Origin: Bacteroidota bacterium | Lineage (GTDB): Bacteria; Bacteroidota; Bacteroidia; UBA7662; CANHCV01 | Length of the DNA: 64,000 nucleotides | Direction: 5' to 3' | Assembly: GCA_947501265.1 (NCBI GenBank) | Contig: CANMVY010000008.1 | Coordinates: 1-64,000, forward strand | Part shown: in pieces, positions 4,123 through 55,153 of the stretch | Numbering within the stretch: the first letter of the stretch is position 1 | Layout of the letters: every line of letters begins with the position of its first letter | Notes under the pieces: generated by a model | Databases searched by the model: none | The model's input: only the letters and a program-made list of their open reading frames with translations | Told to the model about the DNA's origin: nothing | Program-made: the position numbers and the translations under genes

Positions 4123-4175
4123 ATGGAAACGATTGAAACGGCTATGTACATTAACTTTACTTCTGGGGAGGGGTA
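4123..4175 (+). repeat. Dispersed repeat A, divergent copy
   Basis: This is one of four copies in the window of a roughly 55-bp sequence beginning GGAAACGATTGAAACGGCT and ending in GGGGAGGGG. This copy is the most diverged: its middle reads atgtaca instead of the usual ctacccc. It lies in the gap between two minus-strand genes, and the paired CCCCT/AGGGG arms of the other copies are partly lost here. Confidence 0.75.
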
Positions 4176-36052: not shown

Positions 36053-36106
36053 CCACCCCTCCCCGGTAGAAAAGTTAAGGGGTAGAGCCGTTTCAATCGT
36101 TTCCAA
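36053..36106 (-). repeat. Dispersed repeat A, copy near 36 kb
   Basis: This copy of the 55-bp repeat A is in minus orientation. Its ends GGAAACGATTGAAACGGCT and GGGGAGGGG are intact, and the CCCCT/AGGGG arms can form a hairpin. Confidence 0.85.
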
Positions 36107-36171: not shown

Positions 36172-36385
36172 CAAAAAAAATTGAATGGATGTTTTTGGGG
36201 ATAAATCCCCTTCGATAAACTCAGGGACCACTCGCCTCTACCGAAAGCAATTTACGGCTTTTTTCGGGGTTAGTCGTAACGTAAACGTTTATAAACGTAA
36301 GTAAACGATTATAAACGTTTCAATACGGCTATGATCACGAAATTCCGTAAATTTGACTTGGGTAGGGGGGCGGTAGCCCCCGTTT
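36172..36385 (+). repeat. Dispersed element R with phased AAACG array, copy 1
   Basis: This element of about 214 bp begins AAAAAAATTGAATGGA and ends GGTAGCCCCCGTTT. Inside it GAAAGCAATTTACGGCT is followed by four AAACG words at 36283, 36293, 36303 and 36313, spaced exactly 10 bp. A hairpin with GGGGGC/GCCCCC arms closes the right end. It shares order and sequence with the copies near 48 and 54 kb. No reading frame or terminal transposase is present. Confidence 0.88.
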
Positions 36386-36573
36386 GCTGAGAGGGTAGCC
36401 CCCGTTTGCGGCAAGTGACTCGTCCTTAACTGATTCCTCCTTTTCTATGGTTTTTGGTCATTCCTAGATCAAATTAGCATTGGTTTTCAATCCTAATATG
36501 GGTTTACAATTTGCCTAATGATTGCGTCCGCGTTAGATCCAAGTAAACCTCTAATTTTGAGTTAGCTACCAAC

Positions 36574-36606
36574 AAAAAAAAGCCCCGAATTTCTTCGGGA
36601 CTTTTT
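36574..36606 (-). terminator. Terminator after the choice-of-anchor-V T9SS gene
   Basis: AAAAAGCCCCGAA pairs with TTCGGGACTTTTT, with one mismatch, about 18 bp after the stop codon of the minus-strand gene. Confidence 0.8.
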
Positions 36607-36623
36607 CTATTTTTTGAACCATT

Positions 36624-38471
36624 TTATCGTTGAATCAAGACTTTTTCCATGCGGCGATGGACGTTGTTTTCGGCATCGGTGGCCAAAACCTCCACGTGGT
36701 AAAGGCCTTCCGCCAAACCGCGGTAATTCAAGTTTTGGCTGGCAACCCCTCCAAAAACTTCCCGCTTCATCAATCGGCCGTCTGACCCGAAAACACTCAC
36801 TTGAACATGCTTCATCGCAACTCCAAACTGAAGTTGGAGCTCCCCTGAAGTTGGATTCGGATACAAACTCAACGAGAATCCATCCAAAGAAGAACGACAA
36901 GCAGCCGTATTCAACGAAAATGTTCCAGGTTGAGACCAACCGCATAACGTGGTTTGCACTTGAGCACTAACCTTACCCGAAATAAAGGAGCCATTATTGG
37001 TGATCACTGCGCTGTTTCCACTTTGACTTACTAAGGTTAAACCAGAAGGCAAACTAAACCGGTATCGAATCGCGCCAGGAACAGTAGGAATGGAATAGGT
37101 TACTAAATCGCCGGGACAAATAACATTGGAACCGGAAATGATAGGTTTTGATAAAAGAGAAACCCCAATCGATTTGGTTGGAGAGTTTCCGCAGGAAGAA
37201 ATACCTGTAACGGATATGTTACCGCTGGTAAAACTCGAACCAACTCGAACCTGAATACTGGTTGTTCCTTGTCCGGAAACTAACGTAGTATTGGAAGGAA
37301 GAGTCCACAGATACGAGGAACAGCCTGCAATCGGTAGAATTGAGTACGTAGCAAGATTGGAAGTGCCTCTAATGTTACAAACGGAATTAACCGATTGTGT
37401 AAACACGGGTAGGGTTGATATAGGGGATAACTTTGGGTATATAGCCCGCGACAACCCTGGTCCACATCCATTTGAAGGAGTTACACGAATTTGACCCATG
37501 GTAAATCCAGATGGGTAAGTTACTGTTATAACATTACTGTCGGTTCGTCCAACAGCGGTTATACCATTGGTTAACACCCAGGTGTAAGAATCAGCATTGG
37601 GTATGGGTGGAGTTGAGTAAGTTAAGAGTAAACCATTTCCAAGGTACCCACATGGATTTAATTCGCCCGTTATGGAAGATGGCCTACTAAGAACGGTAGT
37701 TCTAGAGTTAAAAAACAAAGATAGTTGATTGGAAGTATCGCCATTTGAATTAATTGCGTAATAAACCCCCGTTTGAGTAGCTTCAAAAGTTGAATTACTT
37801 TGGAAAGTATTTATCCCATTATAATACCATTGAACATTTTGAGTGCTGCTTTGCTGAAGTAGAATGGTATCTCCTTGGCAACCCGTTAACTTCGTCGCAA
37901 AGATGGCGGGTGATCCCGAATTGGAAAATTCTGTGAGGGAAAGGCTGCCAGTGTAAATTTCATCACCACTACTTGATCCATTATTGTTTGATGCATTTCC
38001 CGCAGCGTAAAAAGTAATTGAACCTGTACCAGCTGCTGGTGCGATCCAATTGAAAGTCCAACTCCTTCCCAATTGAATGGTTCCGGTGGAACCATCATGG
38101 TTAGCATAATACTTTCCGCCACTGGTTGAAATAGAAACTTGATTGAATGTGCCTACCGATAAAATGCCAGCACCCTGACTGGTCATATCTTCAACAACCG
38201 TAGCCTGAAATCCCAATTCAGTAGAAAATGAGTCATTGACACTAACGGTAACTTGATAGGTTTGCCCTGGAACATAATCTGTTGGATTTCCTGAAATACT
38301 GATATTGATGCTTCCAAGGCCACTATTAGCATTGCCACTGTGGCAACTGCTGCAATCCACTTCGCCAGGAGCTCCCGTGTGTCCAGTTGGTGCACCTCCC
38401 GAATAGGTAAACACTGACTCAGAAAAACTAAAAATGATGAGAATGGTACCTAGTATTTTAATTATTTTCAT
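36624..38471 (-). CDS. T9SS-secreted protein with CxxCH N-terminal domain and Ig/PKD-like repeats
   Basis: The protein has 615 residues with a signal peptide of about 22. The N-terminal domain starts SGGAPTGHTGAPGE and has CSSCH at residues 40-44, a haem-c-like motif, inside a region that resembles the Reelin-like choice-of-anchor V domain. Beta-sandwich segments follow, then a C-terminal type A T9SS sorting domain from about residue 535 (SLYPNPTSGELQLQF to MEKVLIQR). It should be exported and attached to the cell surface. The last third is almost the same as in the next gene. Confidence 0.88.
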   Translation of the reverse strand: MKIIKILGTILIIFSFSESVFTYSGGAPTGHTGAPGEVDCSSCHSGNANSGLGSINISISGNPTDYVPGQTYQVTVSVNDSFSTELGFQATVVEDMTSQGAGILSVGTFNQVSISTSGGKYYANHDGSTGTIQLGRSWTFNWIAPAAGTGSITFYAAGNASNNNGSSSGDEIYTGSLSLTEFSNSGSPAIFATKLTGCQGDTILLQQSSTQNVQWYYNGINTFQSNSTFEATQTGVYYAINSNGDTSNQLSLFFNSRTTVLSRPSSITGELNPCGYLGNGLLLTYSTPPIPNADSYTWVLTNGITAVGRTDSNVITVTYPSGFTMGQIRVTPSNGCGPGLSRAIYPKLSPISTLPVFTQSVNSVCNIRGTSNLATYSILPIAGCSSYLWTLPSNTTLVSGQGTTSIQVRVGSSFTSGNISVTGISSCGNSPTKSIGVSLLSKPIISGSNVICPGDLVTYSIPTVPGAIRYRFSLPSGLTLVSQSGNSAVITNNGSFISGKVSAQVQTTLCGWSQPGTFSLNTAACRSSLDGFSLSLYPNPTSGELQLQFGVAMKHVQVSVFGSDGRLMKREVFGGVASQNLNYRGLAEGLYHVEVLATDAENNVHRRMEKVLIQR

Positions 38472-38744
38472 TTTGTTATGTTTGAGTAAATAAAATAAGA
38501 TAACAAATACGGAGAAAAATGGTTTTTGTTTTAAAAAAGTTGTTCCTATGAGTCAATAAGTTAGAAGAAAAAACGCACCTAAAAATGCCAAAATAAGTGT
38601 CAAAACAGTGGTTTTTTTTAAGAGCAATTGCAGTATAATTTTAAATGTAATTTGTTTTTTATCGTTTGTAAGTTGATCCAGCGGACCCAACCAATTTTAT
38701 TTTCATGTCATTTTTCAATTTCAAGGATAAAATGGTAGTTCAAC

Positions 38745-38777
38745 AAAAAAGCCCCGAATTTTTTTCGGGGCTTTTTT
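38745..38777 (-). terminator. Terminator after the S8 protease gene
   Basis: AAAAAAGCCCCGAA and TTCGGGGCTTTTTT form a long stem with a T-rich loop, 20 bp past the stop at 38797. The rest of the 38472-38796 gap shows no further feature. Confidence 0.88.
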
Positions 38778-38796
38778 GCTACATCGTTCATCAAAC

Positions 38797-41700
38797 TTAT
38801 CGTTGAATCAAGACTTTTTCCATGCGGCGATGAACGTTGTTTTCGGCATCGGTGGCCAAAACCTCCACGTGGTAAAGGCCTTCGGCCAAACCACTGTAAT
38901 TCAAGTTTTGGCTGGCAATCCCTCCAAAAACATCCCTCTTCATCAATCGGCCGTCGGACCCGTAAACACTCACTTGAACATGCTTCATCGCAACTCCAAA
39001 CTGAAGTTGGAGTTCACCGGAAGTTGGATTCGGATACATCATTAACGAAAACCCATCCAAAGAAGAACGACAAGCAGCCGTGTTCAATGAAAGAGTGCCA
39101 GGTTGTGACCAACCGCATAACGTGGTTTGCACTTGAGCACTTATGTTGCCCGAAATGAATGATCCTGTATTTCTAATTACGGCACTGTTCGCATTCTGAC
39201 TCACCAAAATTAACCCTGCAGGCAAATTGAAGCGGTAACGAATTGCCCCAGGAACCACGGGCGTGGTGTATGTTGACTGACTTCCAGAGCAAAGAGTGCT
39301 TGAACCACCAATGATGGGTTTGGCCAATAAAACGATACTTACCGCTGAAGATGGGGAATTTCCACACGAAGAAATACCCGTAACCGAAATGGAGCCATTG
39401 GTGAAGGAAGATCCAAAAGTGACCTGTATGGACGTTGTTCCTTGTCCGGAAACCAAGGTGGTATTCGAAGGAAGCGTCCATTGGTACGATGAACAGCCCG
39501 AAATCGGTAGAATGGAATACGTTGCCGTTGTAGCTGTTCCACGAAGATTACAAACGGATGTTACCGATTGGGTGAACACAGGAACGGTGGCTATGGCCTC
39601 AAGTTTCGGATAAATGGCGCGAGCCAATCCATTTCCACAGGCATTCACTGGGGTTATTCGAATTTGTCCGGTAGAAAATCCTAAAGGATAAGTAACTGTA
39701 ATCACGTTGCTATCTGCACGTCCAACCGCGGCAATTCCATCGGTGAGTAACCATGAATAGGAAAGAGCATTAGGAATTGCATCGGTAGAATAAGTTAATG
39801 TTTGACTGTTTCCAACAAAGCCGCAAGGGTTAAGCTCGCCTACGATGGCAATCGGACGTGCTGGAACAGCATTTTGAACGGTAATGGGTAAGGTATTGGA
39901 TTGTGCCACGCAGCCATTTGCATCCGTTACGGAAACCGAATAAACTCCCGCAGTTCCAACTGAAATGAAGGAAGATGTGGCTCCGTTACTCCAAGCATAA
40001 CTTAAGAACCCAGACGGTGCAACAACATCCACGGAACTTCCCGAACAAATGGTGGAATTTCCGTTGGTAGAAATGCTGATGGATGCGGGTTGATTCACGA
40101 TCAAATCCAACGTTACAACGCTATCGCAACCGGTGGAAGTTTGGAGCGAATCCACGTACGTTCCGGTTGCGCCGAGGTTTCGACCGCCGAAAGCGTAAGT
40201 GCTACCCGCGCAAATGGAAGCATTGATGTTGGAAGAAATGACGGGATTAACGGTCAAATCCAAGGTCACCACGCTATCGCAACCGTTGGAAGTTTGGAGC
40301 GAATCCACGTACGTTCCGGTTGCGCTCAAAGCACGTCCGCCGAAAGCGTAAGTGCTACCCGCGCAAATGGAAGCATTGATGTTGGAAGAAATGACCGGAT
40401 TCACGGTCAAATCCAACGTTACAACGCTATCGCAACCGGTGGAAGTTTGGAGCGAATCCACGTAGGTTCCGGTTGCGCTCAAAGCACGTCCGCCGAAAGC
40501 GTAGGTACTCCCCGCGCAAATGGAAGCAGAGATGTTGGAAGAAATGACGGGATTCACGGTCAAATCCAAGGTCACGACGCTATCGCAACCGGTGGAAGTT
40601 TGAAGTGAATCCACGTACGTTCCGGTTGCGGCAATGTTACGTCCGCCGAAAGCGTAGGTGCTTCCCGCACAAATGGAAGCGGAGATGTTGGAAGAAATGA
40701 CGGGATTCACGGTCAAATCCAAGGTCACCACGCTATCGCAACCGGTGGAAGTTTGGAGCGAATCTACGTACGTTCCGGTTGCGCCGAGGTTTCGTCCGCC
40801 GAAAGCGTAGGTGCTTCCCGCGCAAATGGAAGCGGAGATGTTGGAAGAAATGACGGGATTCACGGTAAGATCCAATGTTACGACGCTATCGCAACCGTTT
40901 TGGGCCACGAACGTGGTCGAATAAGTTCCCGAGGTGTTGTAGGAACCTCCTTGAAAAACGTAGGAAGAACCCGAACAAATGCTCGCTTGAATCAACGTGT
41001 TCGATGCTGGAAGAACATTCAAGGTGAAATAAATCACGCTATCGCAGCCTTCGATCGAACGGTAAAACAATTCATATTCACCGCCTTCTCTGTAGGTGTT
41101 TCCATCTAAAGTGTATTCGGTTCCTTCGCAGATGCTCGCCGAGAAATAGGTCGTATCTCCCAAACGCGGCGAAAGAATCAAAGTTACCGTACTATCACAG
41201 CCCAAAGTACTTTTCAAATTCGCAACGTAAGTTCCTGGAGTGTTGAGGGTTGACCCGTCGAAATCATAGGATCCTTGCGGACAAATGTAAGCAAAAATGG
41301 TATCAAATTGCGGTTGAATTTCGTTGAGAATTAACGTTGCCGTACTGTCGCATCCGGCCGAATTGGGGAAAGAAGCGGTGTAAGTTCCGGCTGCAAAATA
41401 GGTGCTTCCATTCCAATCGTACGTTCCTCCGCTGCAGAAGTTTGCAACCGTGGTGGAACTCGATTTTGGAAGAACAGTTAATTGCAGGGTCACCACGCTA
41501 TCGCATCCGTTCGAACCTAAAAAGGTTTTGGAATACGAACCAGAAACAGCAAAATATTCATCTTTCAAAAAGCTACTATCGCCCTCACAAATGGTTCTTA
41601 AAACGGTGTTTTCCGTTGATTTTGCGACATTAACAGTGAGTTGAACCGTAGAATCGCATCCTAAAGAAGAAGGGAAAACTTGGGTGTAAATGCCGGAAGT

Positions 41701-44700
41701 CATAATGCTTATGGCGCCAAAAGAAAGGGAATCTCCTTCACATAATACGGCCGTTTGTAGGGTTGAAGACACGGGATTTACCACCAATTGAAGCGTCACC
41801 ACGCTATCGCAGCCGTTTGCTCCAACAAGAGTATTGGTGTAAGTTCCGGCGGTGGAACGGTTGACTCCTCCGAAGGAATAGGTGTTACCGGCACAAATCG
41901 TTGTCGAAAGGCTGGAAGATGTAGGTTGATTGACGTTTAAAGTTAGGGTCACCACGCTATCGCAACCGTTTGCTCCAACAAGAGTATTGGTGTAAGTTCC
42001 GGCGGAGGAACGGTTGACTCCTCCAAAGGAATAGGTGCTACCGGCACAAATCGTTGCCGAAAGGCTGGAAGAAGTGGGTTGATTGACGTTTAAAGTTAGG
42101 GTCACCACGCTATCGCAACCGTTTGCGCCAACAAGAGTATTGGTGTACGTTCCGGCGGTGGAACGGTTGACTCCTCCGAAGGAATAGGAGCTACCGGCAC
42201 AAATCGTTGCCGAAAGGCTGGAAGAAGTGGGTTGATTGACGTTTAAAGTTAGGGTCACCACGCTATCGCAACCCAATGAAGAGACCAACGTATCGATATA
42301 GGTTCCCGCGGAGTTTCGAGGGCTGCCGTTAAAGAAGTAACTTGATCCTGCACAAATGGTGGCCGAAATGGTGGCCGTTACCGCGGTGCAGGCATCAATT
42401 TGAATGCGAACGGTATCCTCCGTATTTCCACAATCTCCTTGGTGTTGCCAAATTAAGTCATAAATTCCACCCAAAACTCCGGTAAACGTGGTGTTTCGAA
42501 CGGTATCATCAACAAAATTACCAGGTGAGGTGGACGTAGCCGATTTTCTCCATTTCCCCTTTTCTCCAATTGCTGGTGTACTACCGTTTAGAATGGCCGA
42601 GGTTGACTTTAAACCAATTTGATTAGCTCCAGCGTTGGCGATGGAAGTAGTTGCTTTAGCAGTTACGATCAAATTGGAGGAGGTAAGCTGTTGGAAAGCA
42701 TCTGATATTCTAATGGAGTAATTCCCTGGGCCGGTTACTGCCAATGTTGGGATGTTGCCGATATTGGAAGTTCCCCTTAGCCAAACAATTGATGCTGCGC
42801 TTTGAGGTGTGGTAACCAACGTTAGCGTATCTTGGGCACACGCCGATGATTTGGATGCCCAAATGGTTGGTGTTTGTAAATAACTGATGTTCACCGTAGC
42901 ATTGTTTGAGAATGCAACAGGAAGAGAACTCTTCAATCGAATTTGATACGATATCCCTTGAATAAATCCAGCTGGCATGGAAAAGCGAACAGAATCATTG
43001 GGCAGTAACGTGGTGGTTGCCGATAGGGTATTTCCACCAGAAGTTGGAAAAAATTCAATGGCATAAGCATTGGATGTTCCGAAAGTACCCGTTTTTGAAA
43101 AAGATAACGTGTAGGTTGTTCCAAGTTTAAAGAAGCTCGGTATGTTGTTTAAAACCAATGTATTGGTATTTCCTCCCGTAACAATCATGGAGTAATTCTG
43201 AGGAGCATTGCTAAGTAAATTCCGTTTGTGAGAAACTCGAATGATGTAATAGCCAGCGGATGGAGCGTTTAACAAAACTTGTTCAACGTTGTCAACCACG
43301 TTATCTCCGGTGGTGGCGGCATTGGCTGGATTAGCAGGATCCAAACGGTATGGGAAAATGGAATCGGATGTTCCTTCCCGATAAATCCGCACATCCAAAT
43401 CGTTGATCAAACGAGGTGCTCGGCTATTGAGAGTTAGGGTGCTGGGTGTGGCTGCGGGATCGGCCCAACAAATCGTGGCTTTCAATGGAGACGTTCCATC
43501 GGAATAAACCCTTAATGTTTGTACACTTCCATTGGATAAAGTATTTTCTCGAATGATGTTTTGGAAATTGGTGTTAGAAATCACTTCCGCAGCTTTCGAA
43601 GTGTTGATCAACCCCCATCCAAAACGATAATCGGGCCCGGTTGTGGTTCCGGCCTCATCGGCCGTATGGATCGTAAGACCCTTTAACGTAGCTGCACGGA
43701 GGTAACTTCCGCGAACGTTGTTGGCGTGTTGTTGAACCAACAACAAGGAGCCAGTTGCCGCGGGAGAAGCCATCGATGTTCCACTTTTTGTGGTGTAAGA
43801 CGTGTTGCTTGCGCTTCCTGCAGAATATAAACTTACTCCTGGGGAAACAACATCTGGTTTAATTCGGCCATCATCGGTGGGTCCCCAACCGCTGAATGAA
43901 CTCATTACCACCGATGATGGGTTGGTGTAACCACCGGAATTGATGTTCACCGCTCCAATGGTTAAAATGTTTTTCGCAACACCGTTGTATGAAACGCAAT
44001 CGTAACCCAATGCTCCGCCATCTTTTTCACGTGCTACGGTAGATAAAACCCAACTTCCGCCTCGATTTACTTTGTGGGTAGCGCCCGTTGCCGGACCTTC
44101 GCCTCGGTCGTTACCAGCAGACTTTACGATGAGGTAATTGGGTGCATTGAACGCAATCTGGTCCCAGCTTTGAGCCGTTGCATCGTAATAACCGAAACGA
44201 GAATCAATGGAAGAACTTTTTGATGTATCACCATACCAGTACCAATAGGAATCGGAAAAATTGTAGTACCATCCGGTTAAATATCCATAGCTGTGGTTGG
44301 AAAGCAATAATCCATTCGCCGCTGCGGTGGCCATTTCCGTACCATCACTATTCCAATCGTATGCCCTTAAATTAGCTTCGTATGCCATTCCTTTTGAGGC
44401 CGACTGAACCCCAGTGGCCATGATGGTACCTGCTACGTGGGTGGCGTGGTCGCTTAAGGTTGTTGCTCCATCCACCTGGGTAACCCTTGATCCAAATTCT
44501 TGGTGGGTTCTACGTACGGCTCCTCCGTCCCATTCCCCCACATTTATTCCAGCACCGGTTAAACTCAATCCCAATGTGCCGCCTGGCCATAGTTTTTGCG
44601 TGCCCATCGTATTGGCAGCATTCAAATTGCTTTCCGAAATGAAGTACATGGGAATGCCCGTTTCCGGATCAATCCGATCCAATTCGATGGTATGATTTCC

Positions 44701-44889: not shown

Positions 44890-45056
44890 ATTAAAAAATT
44901 TTGTGCAAGATATTGAAAGAAATGGATTTGCAAAAAAAATTACTGATTTAAGTTGAAATTACCCCTAAAGGAGGAAAGATACGTTAACATTAACTTAACC
45001 TTGGGTTTTCAATAAGGAAAACTGCCAAAAGTACCTTCGAGCTGTAAATTTTTTTT

Positions 45057-48017
45057 ATGAAAAATCTATTCTCGTTGTTCTTTTCCCTATTCTTGTCGTT
45101 AACTCTTTTTTCTCAAACAGGAAAAATTGCTGGGAAAGTAGTTGATGCCACTTCCGGAGAGCCTCTCATTGGAGCTAGCGTAGCCATCAAAGATTCCAAA
45201 TTTGGAGGGATTACCGATGTGAATGGTGCCTATGCCATGAACAAAATTCCTGCTGGGACGTACACTTTGGTTATCAATTATCTTTCTTACTCTACCAAAG
45301 AAATTCCTGGAATTGTTGTTATTGGTGACAAAATTACCTTTCAGAACATCACTCTTGAGAAAAAATCGGCCAGCATGGGCGGCGTTTCCATCGAAGTCAA
45401 AGTTCAGCGCGATAACATCAATACCTTAATTTTAGAGCAAAAAAATGCGCCGACCGTTCGCGATGGTATTTCTGCCGATGCCATTCGGCGCACTCCAGAT
45501 CGAAATACAGGCGATGTGTTGAAGCGGGTATCTGGAGCCGCCATCCAAGATAATCGCTTTGCGATTATTCGTGGATTGAACGATCGTTACAACGCGGCTT
45601 TTCTTAATGGAGCTCCACTTCCATCTACCGAATCCGATCGTAAAGCGTTTTCTTTCGATCTTTTCCCTGCCAACGTTTTGGATAATTTGACCATCTCCAA
45701 AACGGCATCACCCGATCAAACGGGGGAATTCGGCGGGGGGATCATCAACCTTACCACCAAGGGCGTTCCCGCCGAGAATTTTCAATCCATCTCTTATTCT
45801 TCTGGATTTAACTCCATTGCTACCTTTCAAAAACAAGTTACCTACCAAGGAGGAAAGCTCGACTGGTTGGGTTTGGACGATGGAGCACGTTCTCTTCCTT
45901 CCAATTTTCCTGCATACCAAACTTTTCCTTCCGATAAAGATGGTCAGTTTGCTGCCGCTCAGTTATTGCCCAACAATTGGGAATTAATCAATAGCCGTTT
46001 TTCGCCCAACTCCTCTTTTCAAGGTGTTGTAGGTGGAAACATCAAGCGCAACGACAAAGACTTCTTTGGATACGTCATCTCTGCTTCGCATCAGCAAAAT
46101 TTCAATCGTGCATCTTCCCTTCGTTACAGTTGGTCCTTGGATCCCGACTCCAATCGAATTGTGGGTAAAGCGATGGATACTGCCTATACCTCCAATGTAT
46201 TGGCGGGTGGATTGGCGAACTTCGCTTTGAATATCAATCCAACCAATACCATTTCTTGGAAAAATGTATTTTCCATCACTTCTGAAGATCAGGTGATTAC
46301 CCGAAATGGCATTGGAGCGTACAACGAAGAGGAAAAAATTTATTCCCAGAATGCGGCCCGTTGGTTTACATCAAACAAAATTTTTAGCTCTCAATTGATG
46401 GGAGATCATTATTGGAAATCGGCCAAAATCAAAATCAATTGGGTGACGTCATTCTCAAACATCAATCGAAATATTCCATCGCTTCGTCGTTCTAGTTATG
46501 CATATACCTACGATCCTTCCGATCCAACAAATGGTTCATGGATCGCTAACGTTACCGGTGTTGCCGGCTTCAATTCGAATGATATGGGTACTTACTTCTT
46601 TTCAGAAACCAATGAAGAAGTCAACAGTTCTCAATTGAATTTACAACGTGCTTTGAACATCACCAAAGAAATTAAGAATACCGTGAAGGTTGGGGTGTTC
46701 AACCAAAACCGTATGAGGGACTTCAATAGCCGAAATCTTCAGTACATCATTTCGAATCGCAATAAATTCAACAATTCACTTCAATATCTTGCCGAGGATT
46801 CCATCTTTTTAACTTCGCACATGAGTGATAGCGGATTCCGTTTGGCTCAAGCTTCTCGTCCTTTCGACCAATACCGTGCTCAATCGAATCTTACCGCAGC
46901 GTATTGGATGAATGACACCCGTATTTCTGATGCTTTTCGCGTGGTTTGGGGATTCCGTGGAGAATCGTATCGCCAAGAACTTTCTTCTACCAAAGACAAT
47001 CTTAACCCTGTAAATATCGATACTACCGTGGTGGACTTGCTTCCATCGGTAAACGCGGTTTTCGCCATCAATAAAAAGCAAAACTTGCGTTTGAGTTATT
47101 CCAAAACACTAAATCGCCCTGAGTTTCGTGAGTTGATGCCTTTCGTTTTCGTGGATTTCAACACCCGTTTTGTGATCAGCGGAAACGAAGAATTGGAGCG
47201 TGCAACCATTAAAAACTACGATTTTCGTTACGAAATTTTCCCTGGAAACGGACAGTTGTTTTCGGTTTCTGCTTTCTACAAAGACTTCACCAACCCCATT
47301 GAACAGTACGTTCTTCCTGGGGTGAGCAGTTCTGACGGACTTCAGGTGAGTTACCGCAACCAACAAACAGCCAAAAATCTTGGTTTTGAAACCGAATTTC
47401 GATTGGTGTTAGGTAAAATCAACGGAAATGAAATCGAAAACGTTTGGGACAAATTCACGGTATTTTCAAATCTAGCTTTGATCCGTTCCCAGGTGAACGT
47501 GAAATTTAACGATACAGCTACGGCCACGGTGACCCGCCAATTGCAAGGGCAATCTCCCTATGTGTTTAACGGCGGGGTAACGTATTGGGACGAAGCCAAG
47601 AAGTTCAACGTAAGTTTAATGGCCAATCGCGTTGGTCAGCGCATTTCAGTTGTAGGTTCGGTGAATCAAGCTGGTTTAGAAGATGAGCCAACATTATGGG
47701 AAAATGGAAGAACGGTGATTGATCTTTCTCTTACAAAATCTTTCTTGAAAGAAAAGTTAGAAGTTCGTGTTACAGGACGTGATTTGTTGGCACAGCGCCA
47801 ATACTTCTATTGGGATTTGAACGGAAACGGCAAATTGGATTCCGATGCTGGTGGTTACGGAGATATCGTTGAAACCAAATCCACGTTAACAAATCGTGTG
47901 GTTGATCCTATTACCGGCTATGAAATTGTTCCTACAGGGTCAGCTCCCCGCGACGTTGTACGTTGGAGCACCGTTTTTGGACGCACCATCAACTTGCAGT
48001 TGACGTACAAGTTTTAA
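45057..48017 (+). CDS. TonB-dependent receptor with carboxypeptidase-like N-terminal domain
   Basis: The protein has 986 residues. After a signal peptide (to SQTG), an 80-residue carboxypeptidase-regulatory-like domain (IAGKVVDATSGEPLIGASVAIKD) precedes the plug (RDGISADAIRRTPDRNTGDVLKRVSG and NDRYNAAFLNGAPLPST) and a 22-strand barrel ending in TINLQLTYKF. Receptors of this class import complexed iron, vitamins or glycans through energy from TonB. There is no SusD partner beside it, so glycan uptake is less likely. It is divergent from the S8 protease gene. Confidence 0.93.
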   Translation: MKNLFSLFFSLFLSLTLFSQTGKIAGKVVDATSGEPLIGASVAIKDSKFGGITDVNGAYAMNKIPAGTYTLVINYLSYSTKEIPGIVVIGDKITFQNITLEKKSASMGGVSIEVKVQRDNINTLILEQKNAPTVRDGISADAIRRTPDRNTGDVLKRVSGAAIQDNRFAIIRGLNDRYNAAFLNGAPLPSTESDRKAFSFDLFPANVLDNLTISKTASPDQTGEFGGGIINLTTKGVPAENFQSISYSSGFNSIATFQKQVTYQGGKLDWLGLDDGARSLPSNFPAYQTFPSDKDGQFAAAQLLPNNWELINSRFSPNSSFQGVVGGNIKRNDKDFFGYVISASHQQNFNRASSLRYSWSLDPDSNRIVGKAMDTAYTSNVLAGGLANFALNINPTNTISWKNVFSITSEDQVITRNGIGAYNEEEKIYSQNAARWFTSNKIFSSQLMGDHYWKSAKIKINWVTSFSNINRNIPSLRRSSYAYTYDPSDPTNGSWIANVTGVAGFNSNDMGTYFFSETNEEVNSSQLNLQRALNITKEIKNTVKVGVFNQNRMRDFNSRNLQYIISNRNKFNNSLQYLAEDSIFLTSHMSDSGFRLAQASRPFDQYRAQSNLTAAYWMNDTRISDAFRVVWGFRGESYRQELSSTKDNLNPVNIDTTVVDLLPSVNAVFAINKKQNLRLSYSKTLNRPEFRELMPFVFVDFNTRFVISGNEELERATIKNYDFRYEIFPGNGQLFSVSAFYKDFTNPIEQYVLPGVSSSDGLQVSYRNQQTAKNLGFETEFRLVLGKINGNEIENVWDKFTVFSNLALIRSQVNVKFNDTATATVTRQLQGQSPYVFNGGVTYWDEAKKFNVSLMANRVGQRISVVGSVNQAGLEDEPTLWENGRTVIDLSLTKSFLKEKLEVRVTGRDLLAQRQYFYWDLNGNGKLDSDAGGYGDIVETKSTLTNRVVDPITGYEIVPTGSAPRDVVRWSTVFGRTINLQLTYKF

Positions 48018-48043
48018 GATAACATTTATCCATCTTTTGATCA

Positions 48044-48075
48044 GCTCAGGTGCATCACGCACCTGAGCTTTTTTA
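48044..48075 (+). terminator. Terminator of the TonB receptor gene
   Basis: An 11-bp stem AGCTCAGGTGC/GCACCTGAGCT has an ATCAC loop and a T-run. Confidence 0.9.
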
Positions 48076-48258
48076 TGTCTGAAAAAAATAAATTCGTACG
48101 AATTTATTTCGCTTATTGGATTGGTCGCGTTATGAGGTGGAGACCAATACTCCGCTCCCGAACTTTATCACGACAAATGGCGGGACGCTTTTTAATGAAG
48201 AATAGAAGGAGGTCGTTGGGGCAGAAAAGTTCAAACTTCAAATAAACGGGGACAAAGT

Positions 48259-48313
48259 CCAACCCCTCCCCGGAAGTAAAGTTAAGGGGTAGAGCCGTTT
48301 CAATCGTTTCCAA
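48259..48313 (-). repeat. Dispersed repeat A, copy near 48 kb
   Basis: Full-length copy in minus orientation with the usual ends. It lies between the receptor terminator and element R copy 2. Confidence 0.85.
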
Positions 48314-48394
48314 TTTTTCTTTAAGATGGCCGGATGGTTGTTAACTAAATGAAATAATAACCAAGTTTTGAAGCAATCAACAAAAAGCAATTCA

Positions 48395-48608
48395 AAAACG
48401 GGGGCTACCGCCCCCTACCCAAGTCAAATTTACGGTAATTCATGATCTCAGCCGTATCGTAAACGTTTATAATCGTTTACTTACGTTTATAAACGTTTCA
48501 CTTACGACTAACTCCGAAAAAAGCCGTAAATTGCTTTCGGTGGGGGAGGGTGGTCCCTGAGTTTATCGAAGGGGATTTATCCCCCAGGGTCAGCCATTCA
48601 ATTTTTTT
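48395..48608 (-). repeat. Dispersed element R with phased AAACG array, copy 2
   Basis: This copy is in reverse orientation. On the plus strand the CGTTT words stand at 48464, 48474, 48484 and 48494, again exactly 10 bp apart, and the GGGGGC hairpin is now on the left. It matches copy 1 closely over its whole length of about 214 bp. No gene lies in 48018-48902. Confidence 0.88.
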
Positions 48609-48705
48609 GGGTAAATCAATTTCAGTACAAGAAAATGGTTCTTTTTTTCCAAAGCGAGAATACGATCCAGTGATCGTCATTCACTCTTCAATAAACTTCG
48701 GGACC

Positions 48706-48763
48706 AGTTCAGGGACCGCCCTTCGACCAGCTCAGGGACCACCCATCGACCAGCTCAGGGAAC
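48706..48763 (+). repeat. Tandem 23-bp units, GGGACC/TCGACC type
   Basis: Two and a half units with 23-bp period contain AGCTCAGGGACC and TCGACC. Related words occur inside or beside all R copies and near 54.4 and 54.9 kb. Confidence 0.8.
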
Positions 48764-48874
48764 AAGATTCTCCAGTTGTTGAGAACACCCACGGTAGAAA
48801 ACGCAAGATTTAAATTAAGCAGTAAAAGAAGGATTTTTTGACGAAATTCAAACATCTCCGAAGGTTTCAGGTTG

Positions 48875-48882
48875 TACTTTTG
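48875..48882 (+). promoter_or_regulatory. -7 promoter box TACTTTTG of the DUF3050 gene
   Basis: TACTTTTG fits TAnnTTTG and lies 20 bp before the ATG at 48903. Confidence 0.5.
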
Positions 48883-48902
48883 TACCCGTAAATTTATCTC
48901 GC

Positions 48903-49664
48903 ATGAGCCGCATAACATTGTTGCAGGAAAACATTCAAGACCTTCGCGAAAAACTTATTCATCATCCCATTTACCAACAGGTAAAAACGCCTCTTCAGTT
49001 CCAAACCTTTATGGAGCATCACATCTTCGCGGTATGGGATTTCATGTCGCTTCTCAAAGGACTTCAGCAACAGTTAACTTGCGTTTCAACGCCTTGGATT
49101 CCCGTGGGTTCGCCCAATACGCGTTACCTCATCAACGAAATCGTTGTGGGCGAAGAAAGCGATGTGGATGAAGAAGGAAACCGCCTCAGCCACTTTGAAC
49201 TTTACCTCAAATCCATGGAAAAAGCGGGTGCAGATGTTGGAAAAATAGCTTTTTTCCTCGATGTCCTGAAACAAACTTCCTCCGTTGAACAAGCCTTGCA
49301 GGCCGCCAATGTTCCCGAGGGCGTAAAACAGTTTGTATTGAATACCTTTTCAGCCATCGAATCGGGTAAAGCACACGTCATGGCGGCTGTTTTTACTTTC
49401 GGCCGGGAAGACCTCATTCCTGAAATGTTCCTTTCCATCGTGAATTCCTTCCACCCCGATCAACTCGCTTCGTTTTCTACGTTCAAATACTATCTCGAGC
49501 GCCACATCGAAGTGGATGGAGGTCACCATAGCCACTTGGCCTTGTCCATGACCGAAGAGTTGTGCGGAGACAATGAAGAACGTTGGTCTGAAGCCGAGGA
49601 AGCTACCCGTTTAGCTTTGCAAGCCCGCATTCAATTGTGGGATACGACGTTGGCGGCGCTTTAA
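48903..49664 (+). CDS. DUF3050 family protein (haem-oxygenase-like fold)
   Basis: The protein has 253 residues. The N-terminal HPIYQQVKTPLQFQTFMEHH and AVWDFMSLLKGLQ and the C-terminal RHIEVDGGHHSHLALSM match the DUF3050 family. The family is related in fold to TenA, PqqC and haem oxygenase and has several conserved His and Glu (HH, EVDGGHH) that could bind di-iron. The reaction is unknown. It overlaps the end of menC on the other strand by 4 bp. Confidence 0.85.
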   Translation: MSRITLLQENIQDLREKLIHHPIYQQVKTPLQFQTFMEHHIFAVWDFMSLLKGLQQQLTCVSTPWIPVGSPNTRYLINEIVVGEESDVDEEGNRLSHFELYLKSMEKAGADVGKIAFFLDVLKQTSSVEQALQAANVPEGVKQFVLNTFSAIESGKAHVMAAVFTFGREDLIPEMFLSIVNSFHPDQLASFSTFKYYLERHIEVDGGHHSHLALSMTEELCGDNEERWSEAEEATRLALQARIQLWDTTLAAL

Positions 49665-50713
49665 TTTTCGTTTTTACGCCACATTTCTGACTTCCGTATT
49701 TCCAACGAACCTGCGAAATTGTTTTCGTATAAGGCCCCTGTTCCTAATCCTTGGGGCAGTTCGTTGTTTTTCGTGGCAACCCACTGTGCAATGAATTCCA
49801 AACCGATGTTCGACTCCAACATGGAGGTGCTCCACCAGAGAATGTTGCGTTCCATAGCGGCATCGATCCATTCCTCGCAAGCCGCCAATCCGCCCAGCAA
49901 CATGGGCTTCAAAATCAAATAGGGCGGCATCAATGCATCCAAAAGTTCCCGTCGATTTACTACCCCGATCAGTTCTTCGTCCAAAGCGATGGGAATGGGG
50001 CTTTGTTGAATAATTTGCCGCAATTCCTGGTGTTGGCCAACCTCCAGGGGCTGCTCCACACTATGAATTTGGCATTCAGCTAACTTCTCCAGGTTATTCA
50101 ACGCATCCATGGCCGAGAAAGCTCCATTGGCATCCAATCGTATCTCCAATTCAGGTCCTTCGGGCAAATTTCTTACCCATCGAAGCAAATCCAAATCGTC
50201 TTCCAATTGGTGTTGCCCAACTTTGAATTTCAAAATCCGGAATCCTTCTTTTATTTTTTGCAGAACTTGCTCTTCTTGGAATGCTCGACTTCCCATCCAA
50301 ATGAGGCCATTCATCGGAATTCCTTGCGCTCCTCTTGCAAAGGCCGAATCAAAATAAAGACCTTTTTCGGGAGCTAATGCACCAAGGCTTCCCATTTCCC
50401 AAGCGAAAACCAATCCCGGTTTTCCTTTCAAGCTGTTCCAAAATTCCACTTCGTTTCCCGCATTGAAAGCATCGATGGAGGGAAGAACCGATTTCAATGG
50501 ATCTTCCGACCAATCGGGACTTAGCCCTTTCAGGGGACCAAATTCTCCAAATTGTTCTCGAGGGCCATTGTTTAGGCTGATGAAAACGCCCGGTCGATCG
50601 TGCAGGATACCCCGAGAAGTGCCACTTGGGCGTTTGAAATGCAAGGTGTGGGGATAGGCTTCGGCTCGAAAGCCGAGGTCTTTCAGTTGCTGAAAAGAAA
50701 TGTACTTGCTCAT
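49661..50713 (-). CDS. menC: o-Succinylbenzoate synthase
   Basis: The protein has 350 residues of the enolase superfamily. The catalytic Lys is in LKFKVGQ, the metal ligands are in LDANGAF, VEQPLE and ALDEEL, and the second Lys is in LKPMLLGGL. MenC dehydrates SHCHC to o-succinylbenzoate, the step after MenD and MenH. Its ATG overlaps the menA stop by 4 bp. Confidence 0.93.
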   Translation of the reverse strand: MSKYISFQQLKDLGFRAEAYPHTLHFKRPSGTSRGILHDRPGVFISLNNGPREQFGEFGPLKGLSPDWSEDPLKSVLPSIDAFNAGNEVEFWNSLKGKPGLVFAWEMGSLGALAPEKGLYFDSAFARGAQGIPMNGLIWMGSRAFQEEQVLQKIKEGFRILKFKVGQHQLEDDLDLLRWVRNLPEGPELEIRLDANGAFSAMDALNNLEKLAECQIHSVEQPLEVGQHQELRQIIQQSPIPIALDEELIGVVNRRELLDALMPPYLILKPMLLGGLAACEEWIDAAMERNILWWSTSMLESNIGLEFIAQWVATKNNELPQGLGTGALYENNFAGSLEIRKSEMWRKNEN

Positions 50714-51627
50714 CGAGTTATCATCAATCCTATCGAGAACAACACCACGATGAAAAAGGTTTTCAGGGCAGTTTTCTTCAAAAATGGATCAAAATCGACG
50801 GGGTCTTTGACCGAAAGGACCGGTTTTAAATCCTTCATCAACAAATAAATGGGAAGGAGAACCAGCAGCAACCAAGGCCGAAGGGCTGCCAAAGGAAACA
50901 ACATGGCAATGAAAAGCCCAACGGCATTTCCAACTAAGATGGTGTGGTAACGAAAGGCAAACCGCTGTCCCATGCGAACGGGAATCGTTCTTTTTCCGGC
51001 CAATCCGTCGTTTTCGCGATCCCTCATGTTGTTCAAATTGAGCACCGCAACCGCACAAAATCCAATGGCAAAGGCGGCAAACCAAACCGAAATATGGCCG
51101 ATGGGCAATCCATGCAAAGCGTAGCTGCCCAAAACAGCAATCGGTCCGAAAAATAGGAAAACGGAAAGGTCGCCCAAACCGGCATAACCGTACGGACGTT
51201 TTCCCCAGGTGTAAAGCAAAGCGGCGAAAATAGCGGCAATTCCCAACAGCAAAAAGCTGAAAAAGCTGGCATTAAATGCACCAAAGGCGTGAAAAAGCAG
51301 GAACAAGCCAAGAATAAGCGAAATGGCCGACATAACCATCACTCCGCGCCGCATCTGTTCACGGGTTAATAAACCGGCTTGAACGGCGCGTTGCGGACCA
51401 ATGCGGCCGAGGTTGTCGGCCCCGTTTTCGGTGTCGCCCAAATCATTGGCAAAATTGCTCAACACTTGTAACGCAACAGCCGTTAGAATAGAAAGGCCTG
51501 CAATGTCCCATCGAGCGATACGTCCGGCTTGAATGCAGGCCGACAGCGCCATGGCATTGCCCGCCAATAAACCACTCAGCGCGAGCGGTAGGGTACGAGG
51601 GCGGGCAGCTGATATCCAAGGATTCAT
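50710..51627 (-). CDS. menA: 1,4-Dihydroxy-2-naphthoate polyprenyltransferase
   Basis: The ATG at 51627 gives 305 residues with about eight membrane helices. Both Asp-rich prenyltransferase motifs are present: NDLGDTENGAD and NMRDRENDGLAGKRT. MenA attaches the polyprenyl tail to DHNA to make demethylmenaquinone. It lies one base after the purF stop and overlaps menC by 4 bp, so the three genes form a unit. Confidence 0.95.
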   Translation of the reverse strand: MNPWISAARPRTLPLALSGLLAGNAMALSACIQAGRIARWDIAGLSILTAVALQVLSNFANDLGDTENGADNLGRIGPQRAVQAGLLTREQMRRGVMVMSAISLILGLFLLFHAFGAFNASFFSFLLLGIAAIFAALLYTWGKRPYGYAGLGDLSVFLFFGPIAVLGSYALHGLPIGHISVWFAAFAIGFCAVAVLNLNNMRDRENDGLAGKRTIPVRMGQRFAFRYHTILVGNAVGLFIAMLFPLAALRPWLLLVLLPIYLLMKDLKPVLSVKDPVDFDPFLKKTALKTFFIVVLFSIGLMITR

Positions 51628-51628
51628 C

Positions 51629-53524
51629 TCAGTAACTTCGTTCGTTATTGCCCTCAAACCAGTTGACATAAGCCCGATTGACCACTTTCATTCCACCCGG
51701 GGTGGGGTAGTCGCCACTGAAATACCAATCGCCCGTGTGTTCCGGGGAAGATAAATGCAAATTTTCCAGCGATTGGAAAATGATTTTGATGGGGATTTGG
51801 AAGTTTTCAGGACGAACCAATTCGGCAATTTTTTGAGAAATTTGTTCAACAGAAAACGGACGATATACCCGCTTAACGTGGTTAACAATGTTTTCTTCCT
51901 TCAGCAACTCCGTTTTGGCGTCCTGGTAAACGTCTTCTAAAACAGATTCTTGGCCGCTTTCTTTGAGTAATTCTACTGCAGCTTTGAAGGCAATGAATTC
52001 CGACATTCGGCTCATGTTGATTCCGTAACAATCGGGATATCGGATTTGGGGCGCGGCCGATACGAGCACAATTTGCTTGGGTTGCAGGCGCGCCAAAACG
52101 GTGAAAATGGATTGTTTGAGCGTGGTTCCACGCACAATGCTGTCGTCCAAGATCACCAAACGGTCTTGGTTGGGTTGGAGAATGCCGTAAGTTACATCAT
52201 ATCCAGCGGAAACGATAGCATTTCGATCGGCATCTTGGGTGATGAACGTTCGAATTTTGGCATCTTTATGAATCACCTTTTCAACCCTTGCTCTTAAATT
52301 CAACAGTTCTTGAACTTCTTCTTCTGGCAAATGGGGATTATTCTTGATGGTAGAAACCCGGTGTTTGATCAGGTGAGCGTCGATTCCTTTCACCATGCCC
52401 AAGAAAGACGATTCTGCCGTTTGGGGGATAAATCCGAAAACGGTGTTTTTAAAGTCGTTGTTGATGGCGGAAACGATGGCAGGAACCAACAATTCTCCCA
52501 TTTTTAATCGCTCTTGGTAAATTTCTCGGTCGGTTCCTCGGGAAAAATAGATGCGTTCGAACGAACAAGATTTCCGCTCTTGAGCCTCCAAAATCATGGG
52601 ATTGGTTAGTGTTCCATCTTTTTTAATGATGAGGGCGCTACCTGGTTGGATTTCTTGGATGGATTCGAAGGAAGCGCCAATAGCGGCTTGAATGGCTGGG
52701 CGCTCACTTGCTACCACAATTATTTCGTCATCGGCGTAATAGTAACCAGGACGAATTCCCGATGGGTCGCGGAGGACAAAAGCGTCGCCGTGGCCCAACA
52801 ATCCCGACATGAGGTAACCGCCGTCCCAACGCTTAGCGCTAGGTTTTAGAATGCTTTCCAAATCGAGGTTGGATTGGATTTTTTGCGATATTTCTTGATG
52901 GGAAAATCCTTCTTTTTTGAAACGTTGGAAGAGTTCTTCGTTCTGTTCATCCAGGAAATGCCCAATTTTCTCCATCACCGTAACCGTATCGGTTTTTTCT
53001 TTGGGGTGTTGCCCCAATTCGATGAGGGTTTGAACCAGCTCCTCCACGTTGGTCATGTTGAAGTTCCCCGCAACCAACAAGTTTCTCGACATCCAGTTGT
53101 TTTGTCGATGGAAAGGGTGGCATTTTTCGATGGTGTAATCGCCGTGGGTTCCGTAACGAACGTGGCCCAAAAGAACTTCCCCTAAAAAAGGTGTGATGTC
53201 CTTCATGGCCTCTGCGTTTTCTGCAGTAATGGGTGTATTCTGGGTTGCAATACCCACTTGTTTAGCGACCTGGGCGAAGATATCTTTTACGGGAGCTTCC
53301 TGAATGGAGCGCTGCCGATCGATGTAGCGGGTGCCGGGAGCAACGTTGAGTTTGATGGTGCCAATTCCGGCTCCATCCTGCCCGCGGTTGATTTGTTTCT
53401 GCATGAGAACGTGCAGAACGTTGAGGCCGTGCCAAGCCGTCCCGTATTTATGAAGGTAATATTCGAAAGGTTTTAGCAAGCGGACCAAGGCTAATCCGCA
53501 CTCGTGCTCGATGAAATCGGACAT
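51629..53524 (-). CDS. purF: Amidophosphoribosyltransferase, long Bacteroidota form
   Basis: The protein has 631 residues against about 470-510 in most bacteria. The N-terminal HECGLALV gives the glutaminase nucleophile Cys9, reached by removal of an 8-residue propeptide. RGQDGAGIG and LLGHVRYGTHG belong to the class II amidotransferase domain. The phosphoribosyl-pyrophosphate-binding loop is VILDDSIVRGTT. Extra segments lie between the two domains. It catalyses the first step of purine synthesis. Many Bacteroidota also carry a shorter PurF elsewhere, so this may be a paralogue with a different role. Confidence 0.9.
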   Translation of the reverse strand: MSDFIEHECGLALVRLLKPFEYYLHKYGTAWHGLNVLHVLMQKQINRGQDGAGIGTIKLNVAPGTRYIDRQRSIQEAPVKDIFAQVAKQVGIATQNTPITAENAEAMKDITPFLGEVLLGHVRYGTHGDYTIEKCHPFHRQNNWMSRNLLVAGNFNMTNVEELVQTLIELGQHPKEKTDTVTVMEKIGHFLDEQNEELFQRFKKEGFSHQEISQKIQSNLDLESILKPSAKRWDGGYLMSGLLGHGDAFVLRDPSGIRPGYYYADDEIIVVASERPAIQAAIGASFESIQEIQPGSALIIKKDGTLTNPMILEAQERKSCSFERIYFSRGTDREIYQERLKMGELLVPAIVSAINNDFKNTVFGFIPQTAESSFLGMVKGIDAHLIKHRVSTIKNNPHLPEEEVQELLNLRARVEKVIHKDAKIRTFITQDADRNAIVSAGYDVTYGILQPNQDRLVILDDSIVRGTTLKQSIFTVLARLQPKQIVLVSAAPQIRYPDCYGINMSRMSEFIAFKAAVELLKESGQESVLEDVYQDAKTELLKEENIVNHVKRVYRPFSVEQISQKIAELVRPENFQIPIKIIFQSLENLHLSSPEHTGDWYFSGDYPTPGGMKVVNRAYVNWFEGNNERSY

Positions 53525-53529
53525 GAAAA

Positions 53530-53537
53530 CAAAGGTA
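53530..53537 (-). promoter_or_regulatory. -7 promoter box TACCTTTG of purF
   Basis: TACCTTTG on the minus strand ends 5 bp before the ATG at 53524. Confidence 0.5.
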
Positions 53538-53721
53538 CAACACGAGCGGGAAAGAATGGCAGTAAAATGCCTTTGAAAACGCTTGAGGGATTCAATAGAA
53601 AAAGGTGGATTTGTGAATACGTTATCTTCGAATTTCTAACGATTCAACCACAAACATCAAAAGATAAGAGACATTTTAAAGTGTCTTTTCGCCGATGTGT
53701 GTAAATCCAAAAGAAGGCTGG

Positions 53722-54111
53722 TTAAATGAAGAAATATAAAAAAAGAATGATTTGGTGCCTCCTTAGCCCATCAGCTCTTCCGATTTGTCTTCCCGATCCA
53801 TCGTAAAGGGTATTCCCGTTTAGTTTGCCAATTTGCCTACCCGATCCGTCATAAAAGTAATCTCCACTCATCCTGCCGATTTGCCTACCCGAACCATCGT
53901 AAACGTAATCCCCACTCATTCTACCGATTTGCCTGCCCGACCCATCGTAAACGTAATCCCCATTTATTTTTCCGATTTGTCTTCCCGATCCATCGTAAAA
54001 ATAATCTCCGCTCACCTTTCCGATTTGTCGACCTGAGCCATTGTACATGTATTGAGCCTGAGCAAAACCAAATGACAGCAACACGGACGTAATGAGTAAT
54101 AAATATTTCAT
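53722..54111 (-). CDS. Exported beta-flower repeat protein
   Basis: The protein has 129 residues. A signal peptide (to GFAQAQ) is followed by six repeats of about 16 residues with the core YDGSGRQIGK.SGDY. The pattern resembles the 4-fold beta-flower family, in which short hairpins form a symmetric ring; this match is from memory and unverified. The DNA of the repeats is very similar between units, indicating recent expansion. After the last repeat the C-terminus has an odd hydrophobic tail (ILFLYFFI). It lies between purF and a repeat-filled gap. Confidence 0.75.
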   Translation of the reverse strand: MKYLLLITSVLLSFGFAQAQYMYNGSGRQIGKVSGDYFYDGSGRQIGKINGDYVYDGSGRQIGRMSGDYVYDGSGRQIGRMSGDYFYDGSGRQIGKLNGNTLYDGSGRQIGRADGLRRHQIILFLYFFI

Positions 54112-54387
54112 TTTTTCTTTTTTAGTTTTTTATCCTTCAATTTTGTTTTTCGGATCCCTCTTTTTGATAAGATTTTGGCCTCCACTTTTTTATTTCCTTG
54201 GTTTAACCCCTTTGGGTTCCAGAGACAATCTTGATTTTTAACGCTCTTCCCATCATTTCTTCATTCTCAAGACATTGATTCGATCGATGTTTCAATAACT
54301 TGAGATAAAAAATGCGTCTCAGAACGAGTTCAAATCTATCAATAGAAAACAAAAAAACAAAGGTTTTAAAATACATTGTTTTGAAAA

Positions 54388-54442
54388 TTGGAAACGATTG
54401 AAACGGCTCTACACCTTAACTTTACTTCCGGGGAGGGGTTGG
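54388..54442 (+). repeat. Dispersed repeat A, copy near 54 kb
   Basis: Full-length copy in plus orientation with one change in the CCCCT arm (ACACC). It is followed by a TCGAAGGG word. Confidence 0.85.
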
Positions 54443-54666
54443 TGTTCCCTGAGTTCAATCGAAGGGCGTTGTCCCCCGATTTCGATCATTTTTGTTATAC
54501 CCACTGCATTCTATGTATTAGAAACCTAAAAGAGACGATGCAAGGGCGGTCGATCGGGTCCTCGAGTGTCCCGACATCTGAAGTGACACCGTATCGGTGG
54601 AGTCCCCGAAATACCATTCTCCTTTCTGGAAAATCATTGTTCCTTAGTTTATCCTGAAATTGATTT

Positions 54667-54858
54667 AAAAAAAAATTGAATGGATAAAACTGGGGGATAA
54701 ATCCCCTCCCCCACCGAAAGCAATTTACGGCTTTTTCCGATGTTATTCGTTACATAAACGTTTATAAACGTAAGTAAACGATTATAAACGTTTCAATACG
54801 GCTAGGAACTTGAAATGCAATAAATTTGTGTTGGGTAGGGGGCGGTAGCCCCCGTTTT
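54667..54858 (+). repeat. Dispersed element R with phased AAACG array, copy 3
   Basis: This copy is about 192 bp and lacks about 20 bp of the left part seen in copies 1 and 2 (the TTCGATAAACTCAGGGACC segment). The four AAACG words are at 54756, 54766, 54776 and 54786, exactly 10 bp apart. The right end GGTAGCCCCCGTTT is intact. The 54112-55153 gap has no gene. Confidence 0.88.
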
Positions 54859-54946
54859 CCGGTAGCCACTCACGCTGGTCGAGGCCTTCGGCAGGCTTAT
54901 CCCTAAATCAGTCGGGATGTATCGAGGCCATCGAAAGGCCAAGGGT

Positions 54947-54994
54947 GGTCCCTGAGTCCAATCGAAGGGCGGTCCCTGAGTCCAATCGAAGGGC
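54947..54994 (+). repeat. Two perfect tandem 24-bp units
   Basis: Two identical units beginning GGTCCCTGAGTCC and ending TCGAAGGGC lie at 54947-54970 and 54971-54994. Single similar words appear beside the other R and A copies. Confidence 0.88.
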
Positions 54995-55153
54995 AGTCCT
55001 AGAATGCTATTCCATAATCCAAGCGCTGTTTTCTTCCTTTTCCACAACGATTCTCTCCCATCTACACCGATTCGTTTTTTTCCACAAATGGGGTTGTTGC
55101 TTGAAAGTGAAGCAATTTGATTTTAATTTTCCAAAACCAACCAACACCTAACT

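Follow-up and report, generated by a model that had tools for sequence, protein, structure and literature searches.

A dispersed, gene-less repeat of a Bacteroidota genome appears to pair two outward promoters around a phased AAACG operator

We analysed a 64,000-nucleotide stretch of DNA from a Bacteroidota bacterium (assembly GCA_947501265.1, contig CANMVY010000008.1, positions 1 to 64,000 of the forward strand), here called the window, which carries three copies of a dispersed element named R. Comparison of these copies with the whole genome and with related genomes suggests that R is probably a dispersed, mosaic and gene-less pair of divergent promoters, arranged around the operator of a competence or single-strand-DNA-processing regulon.

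Alignment places the three copies at the coordinates and on the strands that an earlier note on this DNA had assigned to them, with the same order of blocks in each (Table 1). Four AAACG words phased at 10 bp are present in every copy, as that note described, and the core AAACGTTTATAAACGTAAGTAAACGATTATAAACGTTT is identical in all three. The four-word pattern, searched with up to three mismatches, gave nine matches in the window, all of them inside the R copies, against a chance expectation of 0.02. The palindrome reported within the core, the 14-bp ACGTTTATAAACGT, is indeed perfect. The GC hairpin reported beside the core is also present, but there are two hairpins rather than one, each arm ending in one. 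Likewise, R holds no reading frame, as had been noted, but a promoter -7 box is found in each of its arms. Rfam matches in the window were confined to two tRNAs, with no known structured RNA family at R.

R is not restricted to the three places seen by the earlier note. The genome holding the window (G000; 2.33 Mb in 26 contigs, placed in Bacteroidia by its named comM relatives) contains about 21 copies, and copies are present in both congeners compared (G001 and G002), while 37 other relatives gave just core-sized matches, in two genomes. A three-word pattern has 38 matches in G000 compared with none for a reversed-pattern control. Nearly all copies consist of a central phased AAACG array, flanked on either side by TACGRCT- or TACGGAT-like boxes, and of two outward arms. 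The layout is inverted, yet the arms differ in sequence type: arm A (TAAATTTG ... GGGGGCGGTAGCCCCCGTTT), arm B (TAAATTGC ... GGGGGATTTATCCCCC), arm C (TAACTTTAC TTCCGGGGAGGGG ... CCCC) and, less often, arm D. In the window every copy is B-core-A, whereas pairs such as A-C and B-C occur elsewhere and a few copies are single-armed.

The four-word core applies to the window copies but not to every copy elsewhere. Core length is quantised in whole helical turns, i.e. in 10-bp steps: among 17 distinct cores from three species, the distance from the outer AAACG to CGTTT is 18 bp in 5, 37 bp in 1, 38 bp in 10 and 48 bp in 1. In nine distinct 38-bp cores, the words have a mean pairwise identity of 95% (CG 100%) against 75% in the spacers.

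The phased AAACG core is not specific to R. In G000 the palindrome AAACGTTTATAAACGTTT, exact or in closely similar form, is also found at about a dozen sites outside R, mostly upstream of genes. Arrays precede comEC (PF03772), comM (TIGR00368), radC, and the genes for a DUF2851 protein, an M3 peptidase and a Xer-like recombinase; one lies between the divergent ssb and nth, and others are upstream of two GIY-YIG genes and of hicA-hicB (hicA and the first GIY-YIG gene were identified by reading translations). These arrays are retained at the orthologous genes of G001 and G002. Such conserved occurrence in front of several uptake and processing genes (comEC, comM, radC, ssb, hicA) is what a competence-type operator would be expected to show. 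In a sister family of the same order (f2), arrays of up to seven words precede ssb, a UvrD-like helicase gene and a PD-(D/E)XK nuclease gene (rpn). A rumen genome (G060) has AAACGACAACAAACGACTACWGTCGACTACAAACGTTTA in front of comM, of ORF6N-type genes and of a small gene followed by that of a PIF1-like helicase. The four-word pattern is seldom seen in a sample of 395 Bacteroidia genomes; its occurrences outside the order are often before ssb or between ssb and the gene of a small treble-clef-like protein.

The array keeps a fixed distance to the promoter. The -7 box TTTG is located 31-33 nt from the last CGTTT, towards the gene, in 20 of 24 promoters hand-picked among the array matches, against a background of 2.8%, and several genes begin about ten bases or less past it. 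The placement agrees with the -7 box of Bacteroidota, which in Flavobacterium has been mapped to TAnnTTTG, with a second class TAnnTTGY (PMC9723704). Both Flavobacterium types are found in R, the box of arm A matching TAnnTTTG and the box of arm B matching TAnnTTGY (PMC9723704). In nearly all cases the boxes TAAATTTG (arm A), TAAATTGC (arm B) and TAACTTTA (arm C) bring the TTTG equivalent to 31-33 nt on both sides of the core, which gives R the apparent layout of two such promoters back to back, each meeting a stem-loop within a few bases and neither followed by a gene. A scan for the sigma-70 consensus TTGACA/TATAAT, which is unsuited to this phylum, found nothing at R.

Positions of R were compared using neighbours taken from mechanical lists of open reading frames. 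Of the 20 copies whose neighbours are clear, 10 are flanked by convergent genes, while 8 occupy tandem and 2 divergent gaps. The convergent share exceeds the 21-29% seen in sampled gaps (binomial p 0.004-0.035, for copies that are mutually related and counts that are not independent), and therefore R is not mainly a promoter for its neighbouring genes. Most comparable positions are also occupied in G001 and G002, a count that is partly biased as the congener loci were fetched via their R copies; in a sample of about 400 kb of G002 drawn regardless of R, 3 of 4 R positions were occupied. At shared positions the arm or the core often differs between the species, with the break inside the core (L164 versus L183, L157 versus L172). 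When copy 3 is aligned to its G001 counterpart, R is the sole alignable block (86% over 199 columns; 37 of 38 in the core) and the intergenic flanks have diverged. Taken together, the shared positions, the differing arms and cores and the diverged flanks argue that R is old and that its halves have been exchanged between copies. The earlier suggestion of an immobile repeat is thus borne out for the positions, which are largely common to the three species, but not for the arms and cores, which are swapped there.

A companion unit, S (TGGAAACGATTGAAACGGCTCTACnnCTTAACTTTACTTCCGGGGAGGGG), shares arm C with R. Thirteen S copies were found with the arm C pattern, 11 of which have an R or an array no more than about 250 bp away. 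In three species an S-type site precedes dprA, with the -7 box 14 nt past ACGG in G000, and such sites also stand ahead of two other genes, one for a secreted DUF5689-like protein and one for a Y1 transposase (L381 1668-2436) of the type associated with repetitive extragenic palindromes. A further unit S is seen at L391 2728 (-).

Based on these comparisons, we favour the following model. An activator that oligomerises would occupy neighbouring AAACG words along a single face of the helix, with the bound stretch stopping just upstream of the -33 region. It would position RNA polymerase on the -7 box found 31-33 nt past the last word, the same arrangement as for comM, ssb and radC. Within R, a single array would serve both sides. 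Outward transcripts would start a few bases past the -7 box (TAAATTTG, TAAATTGC or TAACTTTA) and immediately enter the G-rich stem-loop, which would cap or stop them. R copies may have arisen by spread of the unit, with arms and cores still exchanged, probably via recombination between copies. The array, its phasing and spacing, the genes behind it, the mosaic arms and the shared positions were observed directly; in this model we infer protein binding, activation rather than repression, the start sites, a competence trigger, the effect of the hairpins and the mode of spread. We know of no AAACG-binding protein. An oligomer on the words is plausible because BldC, a small winged helix-turn-helix protein, forms such chains, its subunits lining up head-to-tail on direct repeats that vary in number and are spaced by roughly one turn of the helix (PMC5859096). 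BldC therefore offers a model for reading arrays of 2-7 AAACG words, R likewise having phased direct words, although its repeat is AATTXXXX(C) with 9 bp per subunit and its host is Streptomyces (PMC5859096). Among the functions offered by the earlier note, the multi-site protein-binding platform is well supported by our comparison, through the recurrence of the array at DNA-processing genes, its fixed -7 distance, the higher conservation of words than of spacers and the 10-bp core steps.

The strongest competitor, to which we give slightly less than an even chance, has the same anatomy and differs on function: R would be a parasitic element of the miniature inverted-repeat transposable element (MITE), BOX or Correia kind, which captured a competence operator-promoter and is selfish and useless to the cell. 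Its dispersal, mosaic arms, inverted organisation and location mostly between convergent genes resemble those of the pneumococcal BOX, RUP and SPRITE repeats (PMC3049150). Searches found no transposase-linked copy, empty site or target duplication; among the orthologous R positions compared, which are mostly occupied, no empty site with target duplication was seen. The R positions are mostly common to three species despite diverged flanks. An origin as REP or BIME elements of a RAYT transposase was considered and rejected, as the two Y1 transposase loci (L082, L381) hold no R arm or core, L381 having only its S-type promoter. It is rather improbable that the copies act as decoys which titrate the activator, with hairpins stopping fruitless transcripts, so that some 20 R copies set the threshold for about a dozen real promoters. 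The copy number, similar to or above that of the gene promoters, and the terminator-like hairpin of copy 2 would suit such a role, but within the window a good T run is uncommon among the hairpins, and -7 boxes are needless in a decoy, yet their position is conserved. A role for R as a nucleoid-organising or chromosome-segregation site, also raised by the earlier note, is very improbable. A phased multi-site array spread over many contigs would suit it, but the arrays sit at promoters at a fixed distance to the -7 box, R tends to lie in convergent-gene gaps, and arrays linked to genes occur throughout the class, whereas R itself is limited to a single genus of those searched.

We also consider it quite unlikely that the array serves a DNA-damage (SOS) regulon as its operator, with R induced as part of the SOS response. 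DNA repair would fit ssb, radC, GIY-YIG, the uvrD-like gene and nth. The non-canonical LexA regulon of Bacteroidetes uses palindromic GGA-N5-TTC or CTAA-N5-TTAG boxes (PMC8565304). Its targets in the same phylum include genes of our list, but R and most of the promoters lack its boxes, the other two having one GGA-N5-TTC each, and comEC, comM and the S-type dprA are uptake genes. A binding site of LytTR type was likewise tried and rejected: within this genus its consensus agrees with AACGTTTAT, but it does not cover the arrays of f2 and G060, in which only AAACG is constant. R was also considered as the target of an integrase: the gene of the Xer-like recombinase carries the operator in its promoter, but nothing indicates that this enzyme acts on R.

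Several observations weigh against the divergent promoter pair of a competence regulon. The overlap with SOS is genuine, ssb, radC and GIY-YIG being Bacteroidetes SOS targets (PMC8565304), and several members of the regulon (DUF2851, the M3 peptidase, nth) are non-competence genes. dprA does not share the operator, as it is under the related S-type TGGAAACGTTTGAAACGGC with the -7 TTTG about one turn closer, and not under a full array. comEC has TTTC instead of TTTG at the expected place, the spacing of nth to the -7 box does not fit, and the promoters counted had been picked by hand. Inspection of about 50 comM promoters of other Bacteroidota revealed the array in L201 only. Finally, the RNA hairpins of the three arm transcripts are no stabler than shuffled sequence (z -0.2 to -1.3).

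R is a variant of the dispersed promoter-bearing repeats, built on an operator that is not described in the literature searched. Judged on its sequence, R has candidate outward promoters, as MITE- and Correia-like elements do. The Correia element (CREE) of Neisseria is a small dispersed inverted element that forms hairpins, with outward promoters possible at either end and an internal IHF site in its long form (PMC2649163). R is likewise small, dispersed, inverted and hairpin-forming, with putative outward promoters and a putative internal protein site. It differs from CREE in having at its centre an operator that belongs to a defined gene set, and in containing both promoters in full at a fixed distance; its arms are exchangeable, and target duplication was not found. 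BOX, RUP and SPRITE are also dispersed stem-loop repeats over-represented between convergent genes, in a naturally competent host, and BOX is modular; the portion of the source consulted reports no regulon operator as their core, and there is no sequence relation to R (PMC3049150).

Table 1. Coordinates of R copies, their parts and units S in the window
Feature	Position	Strand	Basis
R copy 1 (arm B - operator core - arm A)	36172..36385	+	
Copy 1 arm B hairpin GGGGATAAATCCCC	36197..36210	.	sequence
Copy 1 leftward -7 box TAAATTGC, type TAnnTTGY	36247..36254	-	box type PMC9723704
Copy 1 operator core, four AAACG words at 10 bp and closing CGTTT	36283..36320	+	
Copy 1 rightward -7 box TAAATTTG (TAnnTTTG)	36348..36355	+	box type PMC9723704
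Copy 1 arm A hairpin GGGGGGCGGTAGCCCCC	36365..36381	+	sequence
R copy 2	48395..48608	-	
Copy 2 arm A hairpin GGGGGCGGTAGCCCCC, then GTTTTT, terminator-like	48400..48415	-	
Copy 2 leftward -7 box TAAATTTG	48425..48432	-	
Copy 2 operator core	48461..48498	-	
Copy 2 rightward -7 box TAAATTGC	48527..48534	+	
Copy 2 arm B hairpin GGGGGATAAATCCCC	48571..48585	-	sequence
R copy 3	54667..54858	+	
Copy 3 arm B hairpin GGGGGATAAATCCCC	54692..54706	.	sequence
Copy 3 leftward -7 box TAAATTGC	54720..54727	-	
Copy 3 operator core	54756..54793	+	
Copy 3 rightward -7 box TAAATTTG	54821..54828	+	
Copy 3 arm A hairpin GGGGGCGGTAGCCCCC	54838..54853	+	sequence
Unit S TGGAAACGATTGAAACGGC (dprA-type operator) with arm C box and hairpin	36056..36105	-	
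Unit S	48263..48312	-	
Unit S	54389..54438	+	
Unit S, no R nearby	4124..4173	+	

Some further features were seen in the course of the analysis. Another dispersed repeat, GGTCCCTGAG...TCGAAGGG, occurs in the window (for example at 36205-36230, 48690-48780 and 54940-55000) and is inserted in the hairpin loops of several R arms. Arrays stand before ssb paralogues of distant Bacteroidia at L395, L396, L398, L401, L403 and L408, those at L403 and L408 being divergent from a treble-clef-like gene. At L113 2478-4192 the promoter of the Xer-like recombinase is duplicated about 800 bp apart with hicA-hicB between, and the layout is similar in G001 and G002. Between convergent genes, L149 1789-2170 contains a direct repeat of 273 bp; both of its copies carry the 18-bp palindrome and, directly after it, a long G-rich stretch (GGGTGGCAGGGTGGGGGTGGTGGG in the first copy), and the orthologous position of G002 likewise has an array.

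The list of genes behind the array resembles a competence regulon and overlaps SOS. The CRP-S/Sxy competence regulon of Haemophilus comprises comEC (rec2), comM, radC, ssb, dprA and a toxin-antitoxin pair; the list here is similar, but the operator is a phased AAACG array and not a CRP site. Some Bacteroidota, such as Riemerella, take up DNA, and no competence regulator or operator of Bacteroidota is described in the literature searched. A broader proposal, which we regard as doubtful, is that an undescribed activator binding the arrays controls a competence regulon throughout Bacteroidia, with R as a functional but non-coding part of it. Once competence is switched on, transcription from about twenty loci would then run both ways into the G-rich hairpins, yielding either short structured RNAs or sites, opened by transcription, at which recombination starts, and the latter, if real, would explain why the halves of R are swapped at fixed positions. 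The phased AAACG array, with its fixed promoter geometry across families (comM, comEC, radC, ssb), is a concrete bait for the regulator. The dispersed R copies would represent a regulon operator turned genomic repeat, an unusual way to multiply the binding sites of its own regulator, and R therefore points to an unstudied control circuit and its protein.

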